A stretch of 58,208 nt of DNA from Bacteroidota bacterium (GTDB lineage Bacteria; Bacteroidota; Rhodothermia; Rhodothermales; JAHQVL01). The translations under genes and the position numbers were made by a program. The notes beneath the pieces were generated by a model. The model had not been told where the DNA came from. It did not search any database and was given only the letters and a program-made list of their open reading frames with translations. Shown one piece after another: positions 26,026 to 45,807 of the stretch; the first letter of the stretch is position 1; each line of letters opens with the position of its first letter. The stretch spans positions 1 through 58,208 of the forward strand of contig JBCCIM010000016.1 in the NCBI GenBank assembly GCA_039111535.1, read 5' to 3'.

Positions 26026-27816
26026 ATGGATTGGCATACATTTCTATCCGTGATCGGCGAAGTAAGTATTACGTACATCTGGATCCCGATCGGACTGTGG
26101 ACCCTCGCAGCGCTCCCTCTTTTCGTATTTACTCGCTGCCTGGGTAAAGCGGCCCCTCACATACACTACCTGGGATGCCTTGCGTTACTTATTGCGCTAC
26201 CAGTGGGATTTCTGGCCATGCCCTGGACCACAACGGTACTGCAACCGTTTGTCCAACCTGTCCAGCAGTTTGTGTCCTTCCCTACAAATAACAGCACAGC
26301 AGGCTTTACATCGACAAACACACGCGCATCAGCCACAGGCAACAGCGCTACTGCTGGTACGACAATCAATCCGTCTGGTGCCGCATCAACTGCCCCCGTG
26401 CAGGCTGCCGAACATGGGCCAGTGTTTGCCGGCACTTTTACCCTTTTTGCGTTACTGGCAAGTGTTTTTGGGTTGCTGAATATGGGGTTTCAATGGGTCA
26501 GACTCAACCCGTTGATGACCAGATTTGCGCACATCAACCACCCTGATGCTGTTGCCCAACTCGAACGCACAGCACAGCAACTACGGATATCCAGGTCGCT
26601 CAGATTTAAAAGTGCACCTGAGCATATTGCCCCTTTTACGTATGGAGTGGTCCGCCCGTCGATTGTTGTGCCGGCAAATATCCTCGAAGAAAAGGACGCA
26701 CTGCACACCGCGTTGTATCATGAACTGATTCACGTGAAGCGCAATGACTACGGTGCCGGCCTTGTCGCACATTTCCTAGCCGCCTGTTTCATTTTCCACC
26801 CGATGGTGTGGCTGCTGAGCCGGCACATCGCAACCTACCGCGAATTGTCGTGTGATAAAGCGCTGCTACAACAGACCAACACTTCCCCAGCTGACTACGC
26901 GAGACTCCTGCTTAGATTCAATCAGCATAACCGCCTCCGGTATGTGGTCAGTATGCGTCATTCCACATCTAATTTAAAGCAGCGCGTGCAATACATGGCC
27001 GATTACCCGGATTCACCGCTTGTCTACGAGCGCAAATGGGTGAAGATTGCGCTGGTCTGCCTGGGCACCGCACTGCCTGTCGGTCTCATGTCTTGCAGTG
27101 AACAGCCCGTAACCACGGGTTTGACTTTATCTCACCCTAGCACAGGTGCATTGGAAGAGCTGGGTTTGACGATGGAGGTTGCCAATGGTTGGAGGTTAGT
27201 AGACACAACTCGCTTTGTAGCAGGAATCAGTTGGGAACGGAGATTAAATGAATGGCCAGAAAATATCCGCGATGTTTATTTGCGTCAGGTACCCAAACCA
27301 AAAATCGCGGATGAACTCACATTTGGCATAAACTATTATCAATTTACAGATATCCTGACAGCAGATGACATCTACGATATTTCGTACGGAAGAAAAACGG
27401 AGTTCTACAAATACGAGCTCTTCATAGAACTACGCGGAAAAAGAAAACCCACTGCGCTGGCATTATGGAAGGAAGGCAAGTGTATGTATTCAGATTTGCC
27501 AGTTCCGCAACCATGCACCAGAAACTTTGACTCCTATCGCTTGATAAAGCGCTTAACCGAAGCAGAACTTCCTTTTGGTGCAGATTCAGGTTATCTCTAT
27601 GAATCCGAATTTCACTATAGCTATGATAGCCATGGAGAACAATTGACAACTCCCAGGCTCAGCTACCACTTCTACATCGTTCGCGAAAACCGCGCCTACT
27701 TAATCCGCTTTTTTGCCTATGCAACCGATCCTGATAAGGCGCATCTGATTACGAAGAAGAGCGTGCTTAAAGAACCAGCGATTGCGGAGATGCTGGCAAG
27801 TATTCAATTTGAATAA
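26026..27816 (+). CDS. M56 (BlaR1-type) sensor metalloprotease with unfamiliar sensor domain
   Basis: 596 residues. Membrane helices lie near residues 15-40, 45-65 and 135-160, then the zinc-protease site HELIH at about residue 231 with the later SCDKALL (a family Glu/Asp ligand region), then a fourth helix near 335-355 (CLGTALPVGLMSC). The remaining ~235 residues face outside. In BlaR1 this part is a penicillin-binding domain; here I see no serine-lysine transpeptidase pattern beyond a chance SVLK near the end. The end (AYLIRFFAYATDPDKAHLITK.. IAEMLASIQFE) resembles the alpha/beta DcrB/PsbP-like folds instead. The input signal is therefore unlikely to be a beta-lactam. Confidence 0.85.
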   Translation: MDWHTFLSVIGEVSITYIWIPIGLWTLAALPLFVFTRCLGKAAPHIHYLGCLALLIALPVGFLAMPWTTTVLQPFVQPVQQFVSFPTNNSTAGFTSTNTRASATGNSATAGTTINPSGAASTAPVQAAEHGPVFAGTFTLFALLASVFGLLNMGFQWVRLNPLMTRFAHINHPDAVAQLERTAQQLRISRSLRFKSAPEHIAPFTYGVVRPSIVVPANILEEKDALHTALYHELIHVKRNDYGAGLVAHFLAACFIFHPMVWLLSRHIATYRELSCDKALLQQTNTSPADYARLLLRFNQHNRLRYVVSMRHSTSNLKQRVQYMADYPDSPLVYERKWVKIALVCLGTALPVGLMSCSEQPVTTGLTLSHPSTGALEELGLTMEVANGWRLVDTTRFVAGISWERRLNEWPENIRDVYLRQVPKPKIADELTFGINYYQFTDILTADDIYDISYGRKTEFYKYELFIELRGKRKPTALALWKEGKCMYSDLPVPQPCTRNFDSYRLIKRLTEAELPFGADSGYLYESEFHYSYDSHGEQLTTPRLSYHFYIVRENRAYLIRFFAYATDPDKAHLITKKSVLKEPAIAEMLASIQFE

Positions 27817-27900
27817 ACCCAGTTATTCTTTGTTAGCCTTGTTTAACACAAGGGGGCAACTCCTATCAGGATTCAAGCATCTTTATAAGGCTCATTTCGC

Positions 27901-27970
27901 CCAACCGTTCTCTGGATACCAGATCAAGTCCGGCATGACGTGGAGGGTGATGGACGCGCAAGTGCCCCAT
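27901..27970. repeat. Degenerate ~70-bp repeat, copy 1
   Basis: This copy lies in the 363-base gene-free stretch after the M56 gene. It matches 28035-28105 at about 78% by eye. The core CCAGATCAAGTCCGGCATGACG resembles the CCGGATCAAGTCCGGG-type intergenic repeats known from many bacteria (recalled, not searched). Confidence 0.6.
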
Positions 27971-28034
27971 TTCTGCAGAACGTCTCCCTGAACCTGATTC
28001 AGGACTCAGACAAATTGAAAGGGGTCTCATTTCA

Positions 28035-28105
28035 CCCTATCGTTCTCTATATACCAGATCTAGCCCAGTATGACGTGGAAGATGAAGGGCGTGCAAGGTG
28101 CCCCA
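28035..28105. repeat. Degenerate ~70-bp repeat, copy 2
   Basis: Same orientation as copy 1 and about 134 bases downstream. It shares CGTTCTCT, ATACCAGATC, TATGACGTGGA and GTGCCCCA with copy 1. The rest of 27817-28179 shows no gene. Confidence 0.6.
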
Positions 28106-40277: not shown

Positions 40278-41354
40278 CTAGAGATTCGCCATGCGATCTG
40301 CGTGCTCTGCTGTCCGCAGGGCATTGATCACATCTTCCAGGTCGCCATTCACAATTTTCTGGAGCGGATAGTTTTTGCTATCGCCCTGCAACCGGTGATC
40401 GGTGACGCGATCCTGGGGCCAGTTGTACGTTCGGATTTTACCGGAGCGGTCTCCCGAGCCTACCATGGAGCGGCGCGCTTCACTTCGCTCCGCGTTTCGT
40501 TTCGCAATTTCCATTTCATACAACCGCGAACGCAACACACGCAACGCTTTGTCTTTGTTTTTGTGCTGGCTCTTTTCATCCTGACACGTCACAACCAAAC
40601 CTGTTGGGATGTGCGTAATGCGTACCGCAGAGTCGGTTGTGTTTACCGACTGCCCGCCAGGGCCGCTCGAGCGGTATACATCAATTTTGAGGTCGTTTGC
40701 GTGAATGTCTACATCCACCTCATCTGCTTCCGGCAGCACGGCCACCGTAGCTGCTGAGGTATGAATGCGGCCACTGGACTCGGTAGCCGGCACGCGTTGT
40801 ACGCGGTGCACCCCGCTCTCAAACTTCATCATTCCAAACGCATTGGCGCCTTTGAGCTCAAAAATCACTTCCTTGAATCCGCCCTGGGTACCGTGCGACG
40901 TTTCCAGCAGCTCAACTTTCCATTTATGCTTTTCAGCAAAGCGGTTGTACAGGCGGAAGAGGTCACCGGCAAAGAGCGCTGCTTCATCTCCGCCCGTGCC
41001 TGCGCGAATCTCCACGATGGCATTTTTAGAGTCTTCAGGATCTTTCGGAATCAACAGCAAGTGCAGCGCATCTTCCATCGCCGGAATTTTGGTCTCAAGC
41101 GCTTCCGATTCTTCTTTGGCCATTGCAACAAGATCAGGATCGTCCTCCCCATCAAGCATGTCTTTCAAATCGCTAAGCTCTTTTAGCGCATCCTCGTAAT
41201 CTTTAATCGCTGCAACGACTACTCTAAGGTCAGTATGCTCTTTACCAAGCGCGGCCATCTGCTTCACATCTGTTGCAACCTCGGGCTGCGACATCAAGTT
41301 GGTGACATCCGCAAATCGCTTTTTGATTTCCTGTAGAGACTCAATATTGATCAT
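40278..41354 (-). CDS. prfA: Peptide chain release factor 1
   Basis: 358 residues, full length. The peptidyl-transferase motif GGQ is near residue 234 (SSGPGGQSVNTTD), and the stop-codon motif PAT (RVPATESSGRIHTS) identifies RF1 rather than RF2. It releases polypeptides at UAA and UAG. Usual partner prmC is not next to it. Divergent from the coiled-coil pair. Confidence 0.97.
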   Translation of the reverse strand: MINIESLQEIKKRFADVTNLMSQPEVATDVKQMAALGKEHTDLRVVVAAIKDYEDALKELSDLKDMLDGEDDPDLVAMAKEESEALETKIPAMEDALHLLLIPKDPEDSKNAIVEIRAGTGGDEAALFAGDLFRLYNRFAEKHKWKVELLETSHGTQGGFKEVIFELKGANAFGMMKFESGVHRVQRVPATESSGRIHTSAATVAVLPEADEVDVDIHANDLKIDVYRSSGPGGQSVNTTDSAVRITHIPTGLVVTCQDEKSQHKNKDKALRVLRSRLYEMEIAKRNAERSEARRSMVGSGDRSGKIRTYNWPQDRVTDHRLQGDSKNYPLQKIVNGDLEDVINALRTAEHADRMANL

Positions 41355-41535: not shown

Positions 41536-41943
41536 ATGAAAAAGTCTCAGCCTATCTGGATGTTTATTGTCATCGCTTCCTTGAGCGCAATAACCGCCAT
41601 TGCTGTTGAGCGAAGCATTTTTGGCGGGTCAACCGACCGGCTCGATCAGAATATTCTCGCACTGGAAAAGCAGTTGGCCTGGTCGCAAGCACAACGAGAC
41701 TCGCTCAATTCCTTGCTTGCGCAACACCAGGATACCTTGCGGGCGCTTGTTTCCCAGGAGGGCAGCCTGCTCAACAATCTCGATGCATTGCGCTTTCAAT
41801 TGGCCAAACAAGACTCCCTTATTGATCACCTCCGCACAGATGCACCTAACCATGACATCACAACTGATTCGTTACTGCACGACCTTAACAATATTGTTCG
41901 CGACATGCACTCCCACAATGGCCCAGGAGATAACTCCGATTGA
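41536..41943 (+). CDS. Membrane-anchored coiled-coil protein, hypothetical (first of overlapping pair)
   Basis: 135 residues. One membrane helix near residues 8-28 (WMFIVIASLSAITAIAV) is followed by a long heptad-like, Gln/Leu-rich region (residues 35-115, NILALEKQLAWSQAQRDSLNSLL..) and an Asp/His-rich end (DMHSHNGPGDNSD). No family is recognised. Its 3' end overlaps the start of the next gene in another frame by 26 bases, so the two are surely translated as a pair. Confidence 0.7.
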   Translation: MKKSQPIWMFIVIASLSAITAIAVERSIFGGSTDRLDQNILALEKQLAWSQAQRDSLNSLLAQHQDTLRALVSQEGSLLNNLDALRFQLAKQDSLIDHLRTDAPNHDITTDSLLHDLNNIVRDMHSHNGPGDNSD

Positions 41944-42391
41944 CGCGCGAACAGTTGAGCCTGCCGGCGTAGCAGAACGCGAACTTGTAGGCCATGTGCC
42001 GGCAGACAGCGTTCGCATGGTGGTCTTGCCAGAGACGGGCGAAGTGGGCTTCATTGTACCAAAATCTGTTGCCCTACACTACCGCAACCTCGTCCTGGAT
42101 TTGTTGCCGGCGCTTGAGCAAAAGATCCAGTTGCTGGAGGACGCCTCCGCACAACAGCTTTCTTTATCTGCAAACCGGCTCGAACAAATTGAACATCTGG
42201 CAACACAGCGCGATATGCTGCAAGAACAGGTAACCCTCTATGCCGCGGACGCTACAGCATTGAAAAATCAGTTGGACGAGGTCAATAAAGCACGCAAACG
42301 CGAAATCGTAAAAAAGAAGTTCTGGCGCAGCAGCAATTACCTGTTTATGGGGACAACAGCCATTCTTTCAGTTGTTCTAATTGCCCGCTAA
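41918..42391 (+). CDS. Coiled-coil protein with C-terminal membrane helix, hypothetical (second of pair)
   Basis: 157 residues from the ATG at 41918 inside the previous gene; the frame is open upstream but earlier starts would lie deep within the first coding region. The soluble N-terminus (MAQEITPIDARTVEPAG..) is followed by PETGEVGFIVPKSVALHYR, then a coiled-coil-like stretch (residues 55-125), a basic patch (KARKREIVKKKFWR) and one C-terminal helix (YLFMGTTAILSVVLIAR). Its anchoring is the mirror image of its partner's. Function unknown. Confidence 0.65.
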   Translation: MAQEITPIDARTVEPAGVAERELVGHVPADSVRMVVLPETGEVGFIVPKSVALHYRNLVLDLLPALEQKIQLLEDASAQQLSLSANRLEQIEHLATQRDMLQEQVTLYAADATALKNQLDEVNKARKREIVKKKFWRSSNYLFMGTTAILSVVLIAR

Positions 42392-43346: not shown

Positions 43347-44162
43347 TTAGCCGCTAACCTTGCGTTTTATCGCATGCCGATCAAGCAAGTCGTCCGTTGC
43401 TACAGCATCATCCATCGTCATCACATCACCAAGTTGCCCGTCAACTAACTGCGGTTCTTCCACAGACAAGGACGCCGACATCCCAAGGGTTGCATGCACC
43501 TTATCTACCAGGACATTGAGCTTCTCTTTTTGCTTTTGTACCCAGAGCCCAAGCCCAAAGCGAAACGTAGCCATGCCCCCCACTACGCCAGCGATCACCA
43601 ATAACAGGCTCATGATATCAGAAACGCCGCTCCCATCCAGAAAAATGCCGGCTACCACGCCACCAATCATCACACTGAACATGTAGCCAATAAAGGCAAG
43701 CCCTGTATAGCCACGCCGGCCTTCAAGAATGGTTGACTGGTCTTTCTCCCGAATGGATACCAGAATTTGATCAAGCGTCGAACCCATGTCTTTGATTTCC
43801 CGCGACCATATGCGCGCGCGACCATCGTGCCGGCTGCGGCCTCTACTCCCAGTAGTACGGCGGATCGCCTCCACAGCTTCTTCCCATTCTTCGTCGGAAA
43901 AATGGCCATCGAGTACACGGACCATGTTAATGGAAAACGGACCACCCAAAATACCTTTCTCCGTCGCTGGTTTATCCAATTCAAGTGCCGCTGCACGCAA
44001 ACTTGCTTCGTCGATGCCAAATTCAGCAGCTATTTCGCCAACTTCTTCAATTGACAGGCCGTTGGTATCATTCGCAGGGACACCCTTCTGGATTTCAGTT
44101 GCGCGTTGTATTAGCGCACCAATTTCTTTTTCGCTGTAGCGTCGTTTGTCTCCCGTTGCCAT
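43347..44162 (-). CDS. Two-helix membrane protein with N-terminal helical (SHOCT-like) region, hypothetical
   Basis: 271 residues from the ATG at 44162 (MATGDKRRYSEKEIG..). The first ~65 residues (YSEKEIGALIQRATEIQ ... LSIEEVGEIAAEFGIDEASLRAAALEL) form a short helical module found at the N-terminus of several bacterial membrane proteins. A soluble middle follows, then helices near residues 157-180 and 185-210, and an acidic Asp-rich tail (DVMTMDDAVATDDLLD). No enzymatic motif. Divergent from the HAD nucleotidase gene, whose start is about 180 bases away. Confidence 0.7.
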   Translation of the reverse strand: MATGDKRRYSEKEIGALIQRATEIQKGVPANDTNGLSIEEVGEIAAEFGIDEASLRAAALELDKPATEKGILGGPFSINMVRVLDGHFSDEEWEEAVEAIRRTTGSRGRSRHDGRARIWSREIKDMGSTLDQILVSIREKDQSTILEGRRGYTGLAFIGYMFSVMIGGVVAGIFLDGSGVSDIMSLLLVIAGVVGGMATFRFGLGLWVQKQKEKLNVLVDKVHATLGMSASLSVEEPQLVDGQLGDVMTMDDAVATDDLLDRHAIKRKVSG

Positions 44163-44343
44163 TTTCTTCAGTTGCCGTAGTGTGTTTTCCGATATCCAAC
44201 TGTTTACGAGCAATGCAACAATCGGTTACGAGGGATTCTACTTGACACCGGGTGTAATAACTTTTAGTAAAGCCGGCAACCCGGTGTACCGTTTCATAGT
44301 AAACGACTCGCAATTCACATTACCAAGTCGAAAAAATAGTTAT

Positions 44344-45807
44344 ATGCCCAATATCCCGCTTAAAAGTGGCCTTTTTTGTAACCGCACAACTAACCTCAGA
44401 AGCATAGCAGCAGTAGGCTATGACATGGATTATACACTGATCCATTACGACGTAGCCGCATGGGAAGAGCGCGCGTACACGTATCTCAGAGAAGGACTCA
44501 AGGCCCTGGGCTGGCCGGTTGACCATCTGCGATTTGATTACGACATGGCTATGCAGGGCCTCATTATCGACCTGCAAGAAGGCAACGTGTTAAAAGCCAA
44601 CAGGTTTGGCTACGTTCGCCGTGCCTACCACGGCACCAAACCGCTAGACTTCAAAGCACAGCGTGAACTGTACCGCGGCACGCTTATCAACCTGAGTGAA
44701 GCGCGCTGGAAATTTATGAATACGCAGTTTTCGATTTCTGAAATCTGCATGTACATGCAGCTCGTTGAGTTGCTCGATGAAGGCAAACTCCCTCCTTCTG
44801 TAGGCTATGAACACCTGTATCGCTGGACGCGGCGCGTACTTGATGAAGCACATCTTGAAGGCCTGTTGAAGCAGGAGATCATTTCTGATCCTGATCGTTT
44901 TGTTGAGCTCGACCCGGAAATGCCGCTTGCGCTACTGGACCAACGCGAATCAGGCAAAAAGGTAATTTTGATCACCAACTCCGAGTGGAGTTATGCCAGC
45001 CCAATGCTCACCTACGCATTTGATCAATTTTTGCCAGGCGACATGACGTGGAAAGACTTGTTCGAGTTTTCCATTTTCGGATCGCGCAAACCCAGTTTCT
45101 TTGAAAGCAAATCGCCAGCTTTTGAAATCGTGGATGAGTCTGGCTTGCTGCGCGAACACAAAGGCCCGCTCAAAAAGGGGGGGATGTATGTCGGCGCCAA
45201 TGCCTCGCTTGTAGAAGAATCGCTCAATTTACCGGGAGAGCGCATTCTGTATGTAGGCGACCATATTTATTCTGATGTCCGGGTGAGCAAGAATCTGCAC
45301 CGCTGGCGTACCGCATTAATCATGCGTGAGCTGGAGGACGAAATAGATGCGCTCAGAAGTTTTGAGCAAGCGCAGGAAGAATTGTCCAGCAAAATGGTGC
45401 AGAAAGAGGAAATGGAAGCCTCCTATTCCGCACTCCGGCTTGATCTGCAGCGCCAGCGAAAAGGATATGGCCCGCGCTCCGATCGTGCGATGGATGAAAC
45501 CGAGCGGATGATGGTGAACTTGAAACAGGAAATCGTGGCACTCGACGAAACGATTGCGCCGCTGGCTTCATCAGCCACTACGCTATTGAATCCCAACTGG
45601 GGTTTGCTGATGCAAGCCGGCAACGAGAAAAGCCATTTTGCCCGTCAGGTTGAACGGTCAGCAGACCTGTATACTTCGCGTGTATCAAATTTTTTGCATT
45701 ACACCCCGTTTGTCTACCTCCGTTCATTCCGCGGGAGCCTGCCCCACAATCCAATAGACAGCTCTGACTATCAGGAAATCAGCCGAAGAACAACCGAAAT
45801 CACCTGA
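44344..45807 (+). CDS. HAD-IG family 5'-nucleotidase
   Basis: 487 residues from the ATG at 44344; the frame is open 66 codons further upstream, but that part overlaps the divergent neighbour and has no family similarity. HAD motif I reads VGYDMDYTLIHY (DxDxT) at about residue 28, and the late YVGDHIYSDV supplies the metal-binding Asp of motif IV. The layout matches the eukaryote-like cytosolic purine 5'-nucleotidase (HAD-IG) family, which removes phosphate from IMP/GMP-type nucleotides. A coiled-coil stretch lies near residues 340-400. Confidence 0.9.
   Translation: MPNIPLKSGLFCNRTTNLRSIAAVGYDMDYTLIHYDVAAWEERAYTYLREGLKALGWPVDHLRFDYDMAMQGLIIDLQEGNVLKANRFGYVRRAYHGTKPLDFKAQRELYRGTLINLSEARWKFMNTQFSISEICMYMQLVELLDEGKLPPSVGYEHLYRWTRRVLDEAHLEGLLKQEIISDPDRFVELDPEMPLALLDQRESGKKVILITNSEWSYASPMLTYAFDQFLPGDMTWKDLFEFSIFGSRKPSFFESKSPAFEIVDESGLLREHKGPLKKGGMYVGANASLVEESLNLPGERILYVGDHIYSDVRVSKNLHRWRTALIMRELEDEIDALRSFEQAQEELSSKMVQKEEMEASYSALRLDLQRQRKGYGPRSDRAMDETERMMVNLKQEIVALDETIAPLASSATTLLNPNWGLLMQAGNEKSHFARQVERSADLYTSRVSNFLHYTPFVYLRSFRGSLPHNPIDSSDYQEISRRTTEIT

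Follow-up and report, generated by a model that had tools for sequence, protein, structure and literature searches.

Two-component spanins are encoded in phage lysis cassettes by two genes. The i-spanin is a type II protein with an N-terminal transmembrane segment and a periplasmic domain, and the o-spanin is an outer-membrane lipoprotein carrying a lipobox. The second gene may be separate, or it begins inside the first in a shifted frame, either overlapping it, as in LysB/LysC of P2, or embedded in it, as in Rz/Rz1 of lambda, and the shared DNA codes for the second signal sequence. Unimolecular spanins (u-spanins) of the T1 gp11 type are beta-rich single proteins with an N-terminal lipobox and a C-terminal transmembrane segment. 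In the survey by Kongari et al. (2018; PMC6139136), overlapped spanins are a recognised class, periplasmic cysteines are termed ubiquitous in two-component spanins, deviating lipoboxes are reported to exist, and 91 of 677 phages are left without an identified spanin; type I inner-membrane or outer-membrane proteins are mentioned as possible spanins that the survey left unconsidered. A 2025 census (PMC12596118) states that o-spanin candidates without a lipid box were discarded and that Bacteroidetes phages have u-spanins only. Phage-type lysis genes also occur on bacterial chromosomes, as in the type 10 secretion systems of Yersinia and Salmonella.

The window analyzed here is a stretch of 58,208 nucleotides of a Rhodothermales bacterium with a 6.6 Mb genome (G000; assembly GCA_039111535.1, contig JBCCIM010000016.1, C16 in our numbering). 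Two of its genes, designated A and B (Table 1), are read here, with moderate confidence, as a putative two-component, spanin-like pair that would disrupt the cell envelope. This reading is drawn from viral-type cassettes in which the pair lies behind holin-like and endolysin genes, from the homology between the viral-type and chromosomal copies, and from the overlapping architecture of the two genes. An A/B pair was accepted at five loci. Three are chromosomal, in the window's genome, in a genome of another genus of the same family (G001), and in Roseithermus sacchariphilus (G009); two are viral-type, on contig C46 of a relative's assembly in the order (G104) and on a viral contig (L063).

Table 1. 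Coordinates of the A/B locus and its flanking genes in the window
Feature	Position	Strand	Description and basis
Gene A	41536..41943	+	135 aa; N-terminal membrane helix (predicted type II), then long helix; i-spanin-like
A residues 7-28, membrane helix	41554..41619	+	AF2 (block pLDDT 56-72), hydrophobicity
A residues 32-105, single long helix (coiled coil)	41629..41850	+	AF2, mostly pLDDT over 90
A residues 112-127, short C-terminal helix	41869..41916	+	AF2; carries DSL(L/V)xDLN motif
Gene B, corrected start	41852..42391	+	179 aa; signal peptide, beta-hairpin, long helix, C-terminal hydrophobic end (predicted)
A/B overlap	41852..41943	+	92 bases; B in +1 frame relative to A
B residues 1-24, putative signal peptide	41852..41923	+	By-eye cleavage TMA|Q; cysteines at 9 and 19 (FATC)
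B residues 54-70, predicted beta-hairpin	42011..42061	+	AF2; block conserved in part
B residues 71-158, long helix (coiled coil)	42062..42325	+	AF2; continues into basic KARKREIVKKKFWR stretch
B residues 160-178, C-terminal hydrophobic segment	42329..42385	+	Last residue before stop left outside segment
prfA (release factor 1), flank	40278..41354	-	Divergent neighbour; flanks pair in G001 too
HAD-IG 5'-nucleotidase, flank	44320..45807	+	Other flank in common with G001

The initial annotation had described a pair of overlapping reading frames, and both frames, A at 41536-41943 and a +1 frame ending at 42391, were borne out. Its overlap of 26 bases, counted from an ATG at 41918, did not hold, for an in-frame ATG lies upstream at 41852 and lengthens the overlap to 92 bases. 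The upstream start adds 22 residues that read like a signal peptide, and B of G001 has a signal-peptide-like start at the matching position. Because of these export-signal-like residues and the matching start in G001, gene B most likely begins at 41852 rather than at 41918, which would make B hydrophobic at both ends. The layout given for A, an N-terminal helix and a coiled coil, was recovered as an N-terminal hydrophobic segment followed by a helix. For B, the long helix and the C-terminal hydrophobic segment were as described and the signal-peptide-like start had been overlooked; the picture of two oppositely anchored proteins thus accounts for one end of B and is incomplete for the other.

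Coding potential rejected neither frame. With a codon-usage model trained on 14 ORFs of the window, A scored +0.102 and B +0.183 per codon in their non-shared parts, each the best of the six frames, and in the shared part the two frames scored about equally (-0.196 and -0.205), above the remaining four. Within the shared stretch, of 28 codons only, the bases conserved between G000 and G001 tracked the codon phase of B, at 0.79, 0.54, and 0.32 for positions 1, 2, and 3; for G009 the values were 0.61, 0.32, and 0.39, and the B-phase pattern was not clear. Outside the overlap, third codon positions were the least conserved. The two genes were found together, in the same order and frame, at all five loci where B was accepted, overlapping in +1 by 65-119 bases; the five pairs share common descent and hence are not independent cases.

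Both viral-type copies follow lysis genes. On contig C46 of G104, an ORF matching tail proteins is followed by a holin-like ORF, a CHAP endolysin gene, A, and B, and the pair ends this 10 kb contig; the assembly is 78% complete, and C46 may be a binned virus instead of a prophage. On L063, a holin-like ORF, the endolysin gene, A, and B lie consecutively. The term holin-like is used here as a label from position and hydrophobicity, and those scanned had no library match above cut-off. In a two-sequence comparison, the holin-like protein of L063 matched one encoded on another contig of the window's genome, C38, at E 2e-10. L063 was reached via the endolysin family of C46, in a search of viral contigs that gave 178 confirmed stretches, the best 80 of which were analyzed, and it was recovered again when queried with the two viral B proteins.

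The 80 loci contain 4,663 ORFs, of which an HMM of the three chromosomal B proteins placed B of L063 first (E 0.0017); the chromosomal A HMM placed A of L063 second, but at E 0.86. Against B of G104, the B HMM scored 26.4 bits (E 1.7e-6), compared with 10.5 for the best of 500 shuffles and 18.1 for the best unrelated background ORF, the latter among loci partly fetched as weak matches. The score of the A HMM against A of G104 (9.5 bits, E 0.27) was not significant, and one shuffled B scored higher (14.8). Profile comparison by hhalign gave 96% for chromosomal against viral B (E 4.6e-9, 121 columns) and 88% for chromosomal against viral A (E 3.4e-6, 113 columns). As a control, chromosomal A against another N-terminally membrane-anchored coiled coil gave 1.7% (E 0.029). 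Further controls used B', a look-alike of B encoded on C38, and gave 11% with chromosomal B (E 0.0028) and 0.2% with viral B (E 0.29). At these values B' was not supported as a B homologue, the likeness being one of layout alone. Since the single HMM was not significant for A, the link between chromosomal and viral A is taken from profile comparison together with position. No relative of B from the window, G104, or L063, nor of B', was returned by tblastn (E up to 1) from 50,697 phage records, and viral scans with the chromosomal B alignment, B of G104, and B' likewise returned none. A topology scan for such pairs proved too crude: it recovered the G001 pair and the C38 look-alike but missed the window pair, listed chance pairs, and for L009 and L027 chose A with an incorrect frame or start. 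That it gave no credible pair in RM378, B124-14, or P2559S therefore carries little weight.

The 80 loci fell into 29 endolysin clusters at 85% identity, and a crude scan was made of the slot directly behind the endolysin gene. Lipoprotein spanins occupied this slot in five clusters and A/B in a single one (L063), leaving 23 in which neither a known kind of spanin nor A/B was recognised. The u-spanin layout, a lipoprotein with a C-terminal membrane segment, was present in four clusters (L067, L069, L070, and L125, the INAC setting of L125 having been missed by the script and assigned by eye), and L065 had an i-spanin and lipoprotein pair, the first gene of which matched the PHROG Rz-like spanin (E 1.3e-8). 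From these slot contents, the A/B pair sits at a place used for spanins in some related phages. The script also flagged lipoboxes in 64-residue proteins of L082 and L134, flags that were taken as false. The L065 genes, at 529-1283, look like a classical i-spanin and lipoprotein o-spanin pair behind an endolysin related to those of Rhodothermales, which would depart from the report of u-spanins only if the host belongs to the Bacteroidetes.

Single-chain AF2 models, each made from four sequences, had mean pLDDT values of 76 for A and 75.5 for B. In A they gave helices at residues 7-28, 32-105 (74 residues), and 112-127; in B, a signal helix at 2-18, a disordered stretch at 19-49, the hairpin at 54-70, and one helix at 71-178 (108 residues). 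The DSL(L/V)xDLN motif of A (DSLL in the window) is common to the three chromosomal copies and weaker in the viral ones. A structure search with the B model gave no E below 1.9, as expected for a protein that is mainly one helix.

Compared with two-component spanins, A resembles an i-spanin in having an N-terminal transmembrane segment followed by a helix, with hydrophobicity and the AF2 model both fitting and the type II orientation predicted. B likewise begins inside the first gene in a shifted frame, its putative signal sequence encoded in the shared DNA, and the viral-type pairs likewise stand behind an endolysin gene within a lysis cassette; the window copy does not lie in one. B differs from o-spanins in its signal, which resembles a signal peptidase I type and lacks a consensus lipobox, in its long helix, and in its C-terminal hydrophobic end. 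The consensus [LVI][ASTVI][GAS]C matched none of the five B proteins. Those of G001, G104, and L063 have no cysteine whatever; those of the window (9 and 19) and of G009 (4, 5, 11, and 12; SIAC) have cysteines in non-consensus, lipobox-like settings. Because deviating lipoboxes have been reported, these two B proteins might nonetheless be lipidated. No B has a cysteine after its signal region, four of the five A proteins, including that of the window, have none, and the one in A of G104 lies in the membrane helix, so that periplasmic cysteines for intermolecular disulfides, as in two-component spanins, are lacking in both partners. With lipobox and periplasmic cysteines both absent, A/B fall outside the spanin definition, and the pair may be a new variant, possibly working like a spanin, rather than a member of the class as defined.

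B also shares with u-spanins an N-terminal export signal, a C-terminal hydrophobic segment, and the absence of periplasmic cysteines. It differs in having no consensus N-terminal lipobox (with the caveat of the non-consensus cysteines in two of the five), in being predicted helical rather than beta-rich, and in having a partner. The C-terminal hydrophobic segment is present in all five B proteins (KD 1.48-2.27; 3-9 Gly plus Ala in 19 residues), and the 15 residues preceding it carry a net charge of +3 to +8, compared with +1 or +2 in the four u-spanin-like slot proteins, which have 1-7 Gly plus Ala. A basic stretch directly before the segment fits poorly with an ordinary type I stop-transfer anchor and would be compatible with insertion from the periplasmic side.

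The initial annotation had recognised no family, and profile searches agreed: A and B of the window had no match above cut-off or at E < 0.001 in Pfam, NCBIfam, or PHROG, only weak matches (SlyX, SMC, and others) below cut-off. Nor did A or B of the window, G104, or L063 match PHROG or Pfam spanin families at E < 0.001 or above curated cut-offs, or B of G001 and G009, scanned against PHROGs only, any PHROG at these thresholds; the spanin-family scans left out A of G001 and G009, and L065 served as positive control with its match to the Rz-like spanin. Among the literature matches listed, whose titles and abstracts covered few subscription papers, no such pair was described. The proposal of an undescribed pair able to bridge two membranes is supported in so far as the pairing is kept, no family is matched, and viral relatives occupy the spanin slot; the bridging itself is putative.

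Were the pair to act as a spanin-like device, A would be the inner-membrane subunit, with its N-terminus in the cytoplasm and its helix extending into the periplasm. The signal peptide of B would direct its export, so that the hairpin near the N-terminus and the long helix come to lie in the periplasm, and the C-terminal end, basic and often Gly/Ala-rich, would insert in a membrane. In phages, the holin and endolysin would act first; after the cell wall has been cut, A and B would bind each other and pull the envelope membranes together, perhaps to fusion. The host might use the pair with a separate holin-like and endolysin cluster of the same genome or on some other trigger, which is a guess.

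A more specific version, which we consider rather improbable, is that A/B represent a third kind of spanin, anchored at the outer-membrane side by a protein segment rather than a lipid, and that Rhodothermales hosts have retained it to open the envelope in a controlled way, independently of a cassette. The C-terminal end of B, basic and then hydrophobic and mostly Gly/Ala-rich, would in that case enter the outer membrane like a fusion peptide. The non-consensus cysteines found in two of the five B proteins slightly reduced the weight given to this version. If it were true, a third kind might account for part of the phages without a spanin, as searches have required a lipobox. Spanin surveys identify the second subunit via the lipobox, and a conserved pair without a consensus lipobox in a spanin slot makes that gap testable.

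The chromosomal copies are rare. Single-protein queries found B in three of 60 genomes, its own included, and A immediately upstream in each of them; a further weak match to A in G043 (E 8e-4) lies inside an 838 aa frame and is outside this count. A three-row B profile found B in four of the 114 genomes of the order (G000, G001, G009, and G104), and a fifth, weak match in G023, which sits within a larger ORF, was dropped. Searches of 244 genomes of the class and of a 394-genome sample of the phylum gave no convincing further case. In the class search, eight of 12 matches were dropped as weak (E 0.002-0.009), G023 and G063 being the ones inspected, and that of G063 was judged on reading an unrelated repeat coiled coil. 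Three of the five phylum matches were dropped: G400 has stops within the matched stretch, the match in G291 is antisense to an oxidoreductase-like ORF, and that in G469 is a short, soluble-looking protein with no signal and no C-terminal hydrophobic end. A genome-contig search for B relatives had Roseithermus as its sole match.

Both G000 and G001 have the pair between prfA and the HAD 5'-nucleotidase gene; in G009 it lies about 380 kb from prfA, between genes for rhodanese-type and potassium-channel-like proteins, as read by eye from the translations. In the window, B and the nucleotidase gene are separated by two further genes, one for a 288 aa protein (43347-44213, minus strand) with by-eye membrane segments and no Pfam match at E 1, the other for a methyltransferase; both are missing there in G001. 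Such settings, with syntenic copies in two genera, another copy in Roseithermus, and no phage-type neighbours among those read, would also suit a tether or scaffold of the cell envelope that has nothing to do with lysis, in which a periplasmic A/B bundle joins the inner membrane to another layer and which phages borrowed. The five-taxon tree, which separates chromosomal from viral copies (100 of 100 bootstraps for B, 83 for A), is compatible with this, although it does not tell the direction of transfer. We regard a tether as unlikely, since only three chromosomal cases and one phage-like contig were found in the 114 genomes of the order, the pair is missing at the same site in G002 of the same family, where prfA and the nucleotidase gene are 213 bases apart, and both viral-type cases are placed behind an endolysin gene.

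The window pair has no adjacent lysis gene, and six neighbouring genes scanned gave no phage-type match. Consisting of just the two terminal genes of a lysis cassette, the pair might be a decaying prophage remnant, useless to the host. Decay fits poorly with frames that stay open between genera at about 30-44% identity with conserved motifs, with the constraint on codon positions outside the overlap, with a site kept in both G000 and G001, and with A and B both scoring as coding; a remnant is quite unlikely, and the window copy is probably a chromosomal copy retained by the host. On the spanin-like reading, such copies pose the question why bacteria retain the outer-membrane step of phage lysis.

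If B instead started at 41918, it could be a cytoplasmic, tail-anchored protein, and the membrane would separate the two coiled coils, which would never meet. The basic residues before its C-terminal segment (+7 in the window) suit an N-in, C-out anchor, and the hydrophobic stretch at the start of the window's B is weak (KD 1.07). All five B proteins, however, have signal-peptide-like N-termini, strongest in L063, ending by eye in x-A followed by Q or R, and the conservation phase of the overlap in G000/G001 follows B. A tail-anchored B is thus very unlikely, and the coiled coil of B is, from its signal-peptide-like start, probably located in the periplasm. That two unrelated coiled-coil genes overlap by chance is largely refuted by five pairs that agree in gene order and frame and by profile comparisons far above controls, even if coiled coils yield weak false matches, as the class and phylum searches did.

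A separate lysis-like cluster lies elsewhere on the host chromosome, on C38 (L047, 5528-9077). Its members are a holin-like gene, two genes for CHAP endolysins, of which one starts like a lipoprotein and the other is fused to an N-terminal membrane coiled coil, two further genes for coiled coils with N-terminal membrane segments, and B', in which a signal and a coiled coil are followed by a hydrophobic C-terminus. In G001 these parts are spread over two contigs (L048 on C133, 2591-5243, and L049 on C232, 5298-6369), the set being kept in two genera. The seven ORFs scanned next to the C38 and C133 clusters gave matches to ordinary bacterial families in every case. Our guess is that the window pair and the C38 cluster both serve controlled envelope opening. 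Compared with the type 10 secretion systems, the window pair stands alone, with the holin-like and endolysin genes on C38, and has no known secreted cargo. A link to the release of contractile injection particles was unsupported for the window's genome in a search of five genomes for PF04984 only, which had no match in G000, G001, G002, or G104 and one in G009.

Other candidate genes were seen near the endolysins. In Croceibacter phage P2559S (L060), which is listed as spanin-less, a gene for a coiled coil with an N-terminal membrane segment (27300-27674) lies directly behind the endolysin gene and is followed by a short ORF with an aromatic tail like that of outer-membrane proteins; the two, at 27300-28065, are possible spanin candidates. 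A further protein recurs near such endolysins (L068, 4485-5078; L073, 4468-5052; L139, 1346-2068; L053, 7599-8192); it has a membrane helix at the N-terminus, and its C-terminal part resembles, by eye, a beta-hairpin of an outer-membrane protein.
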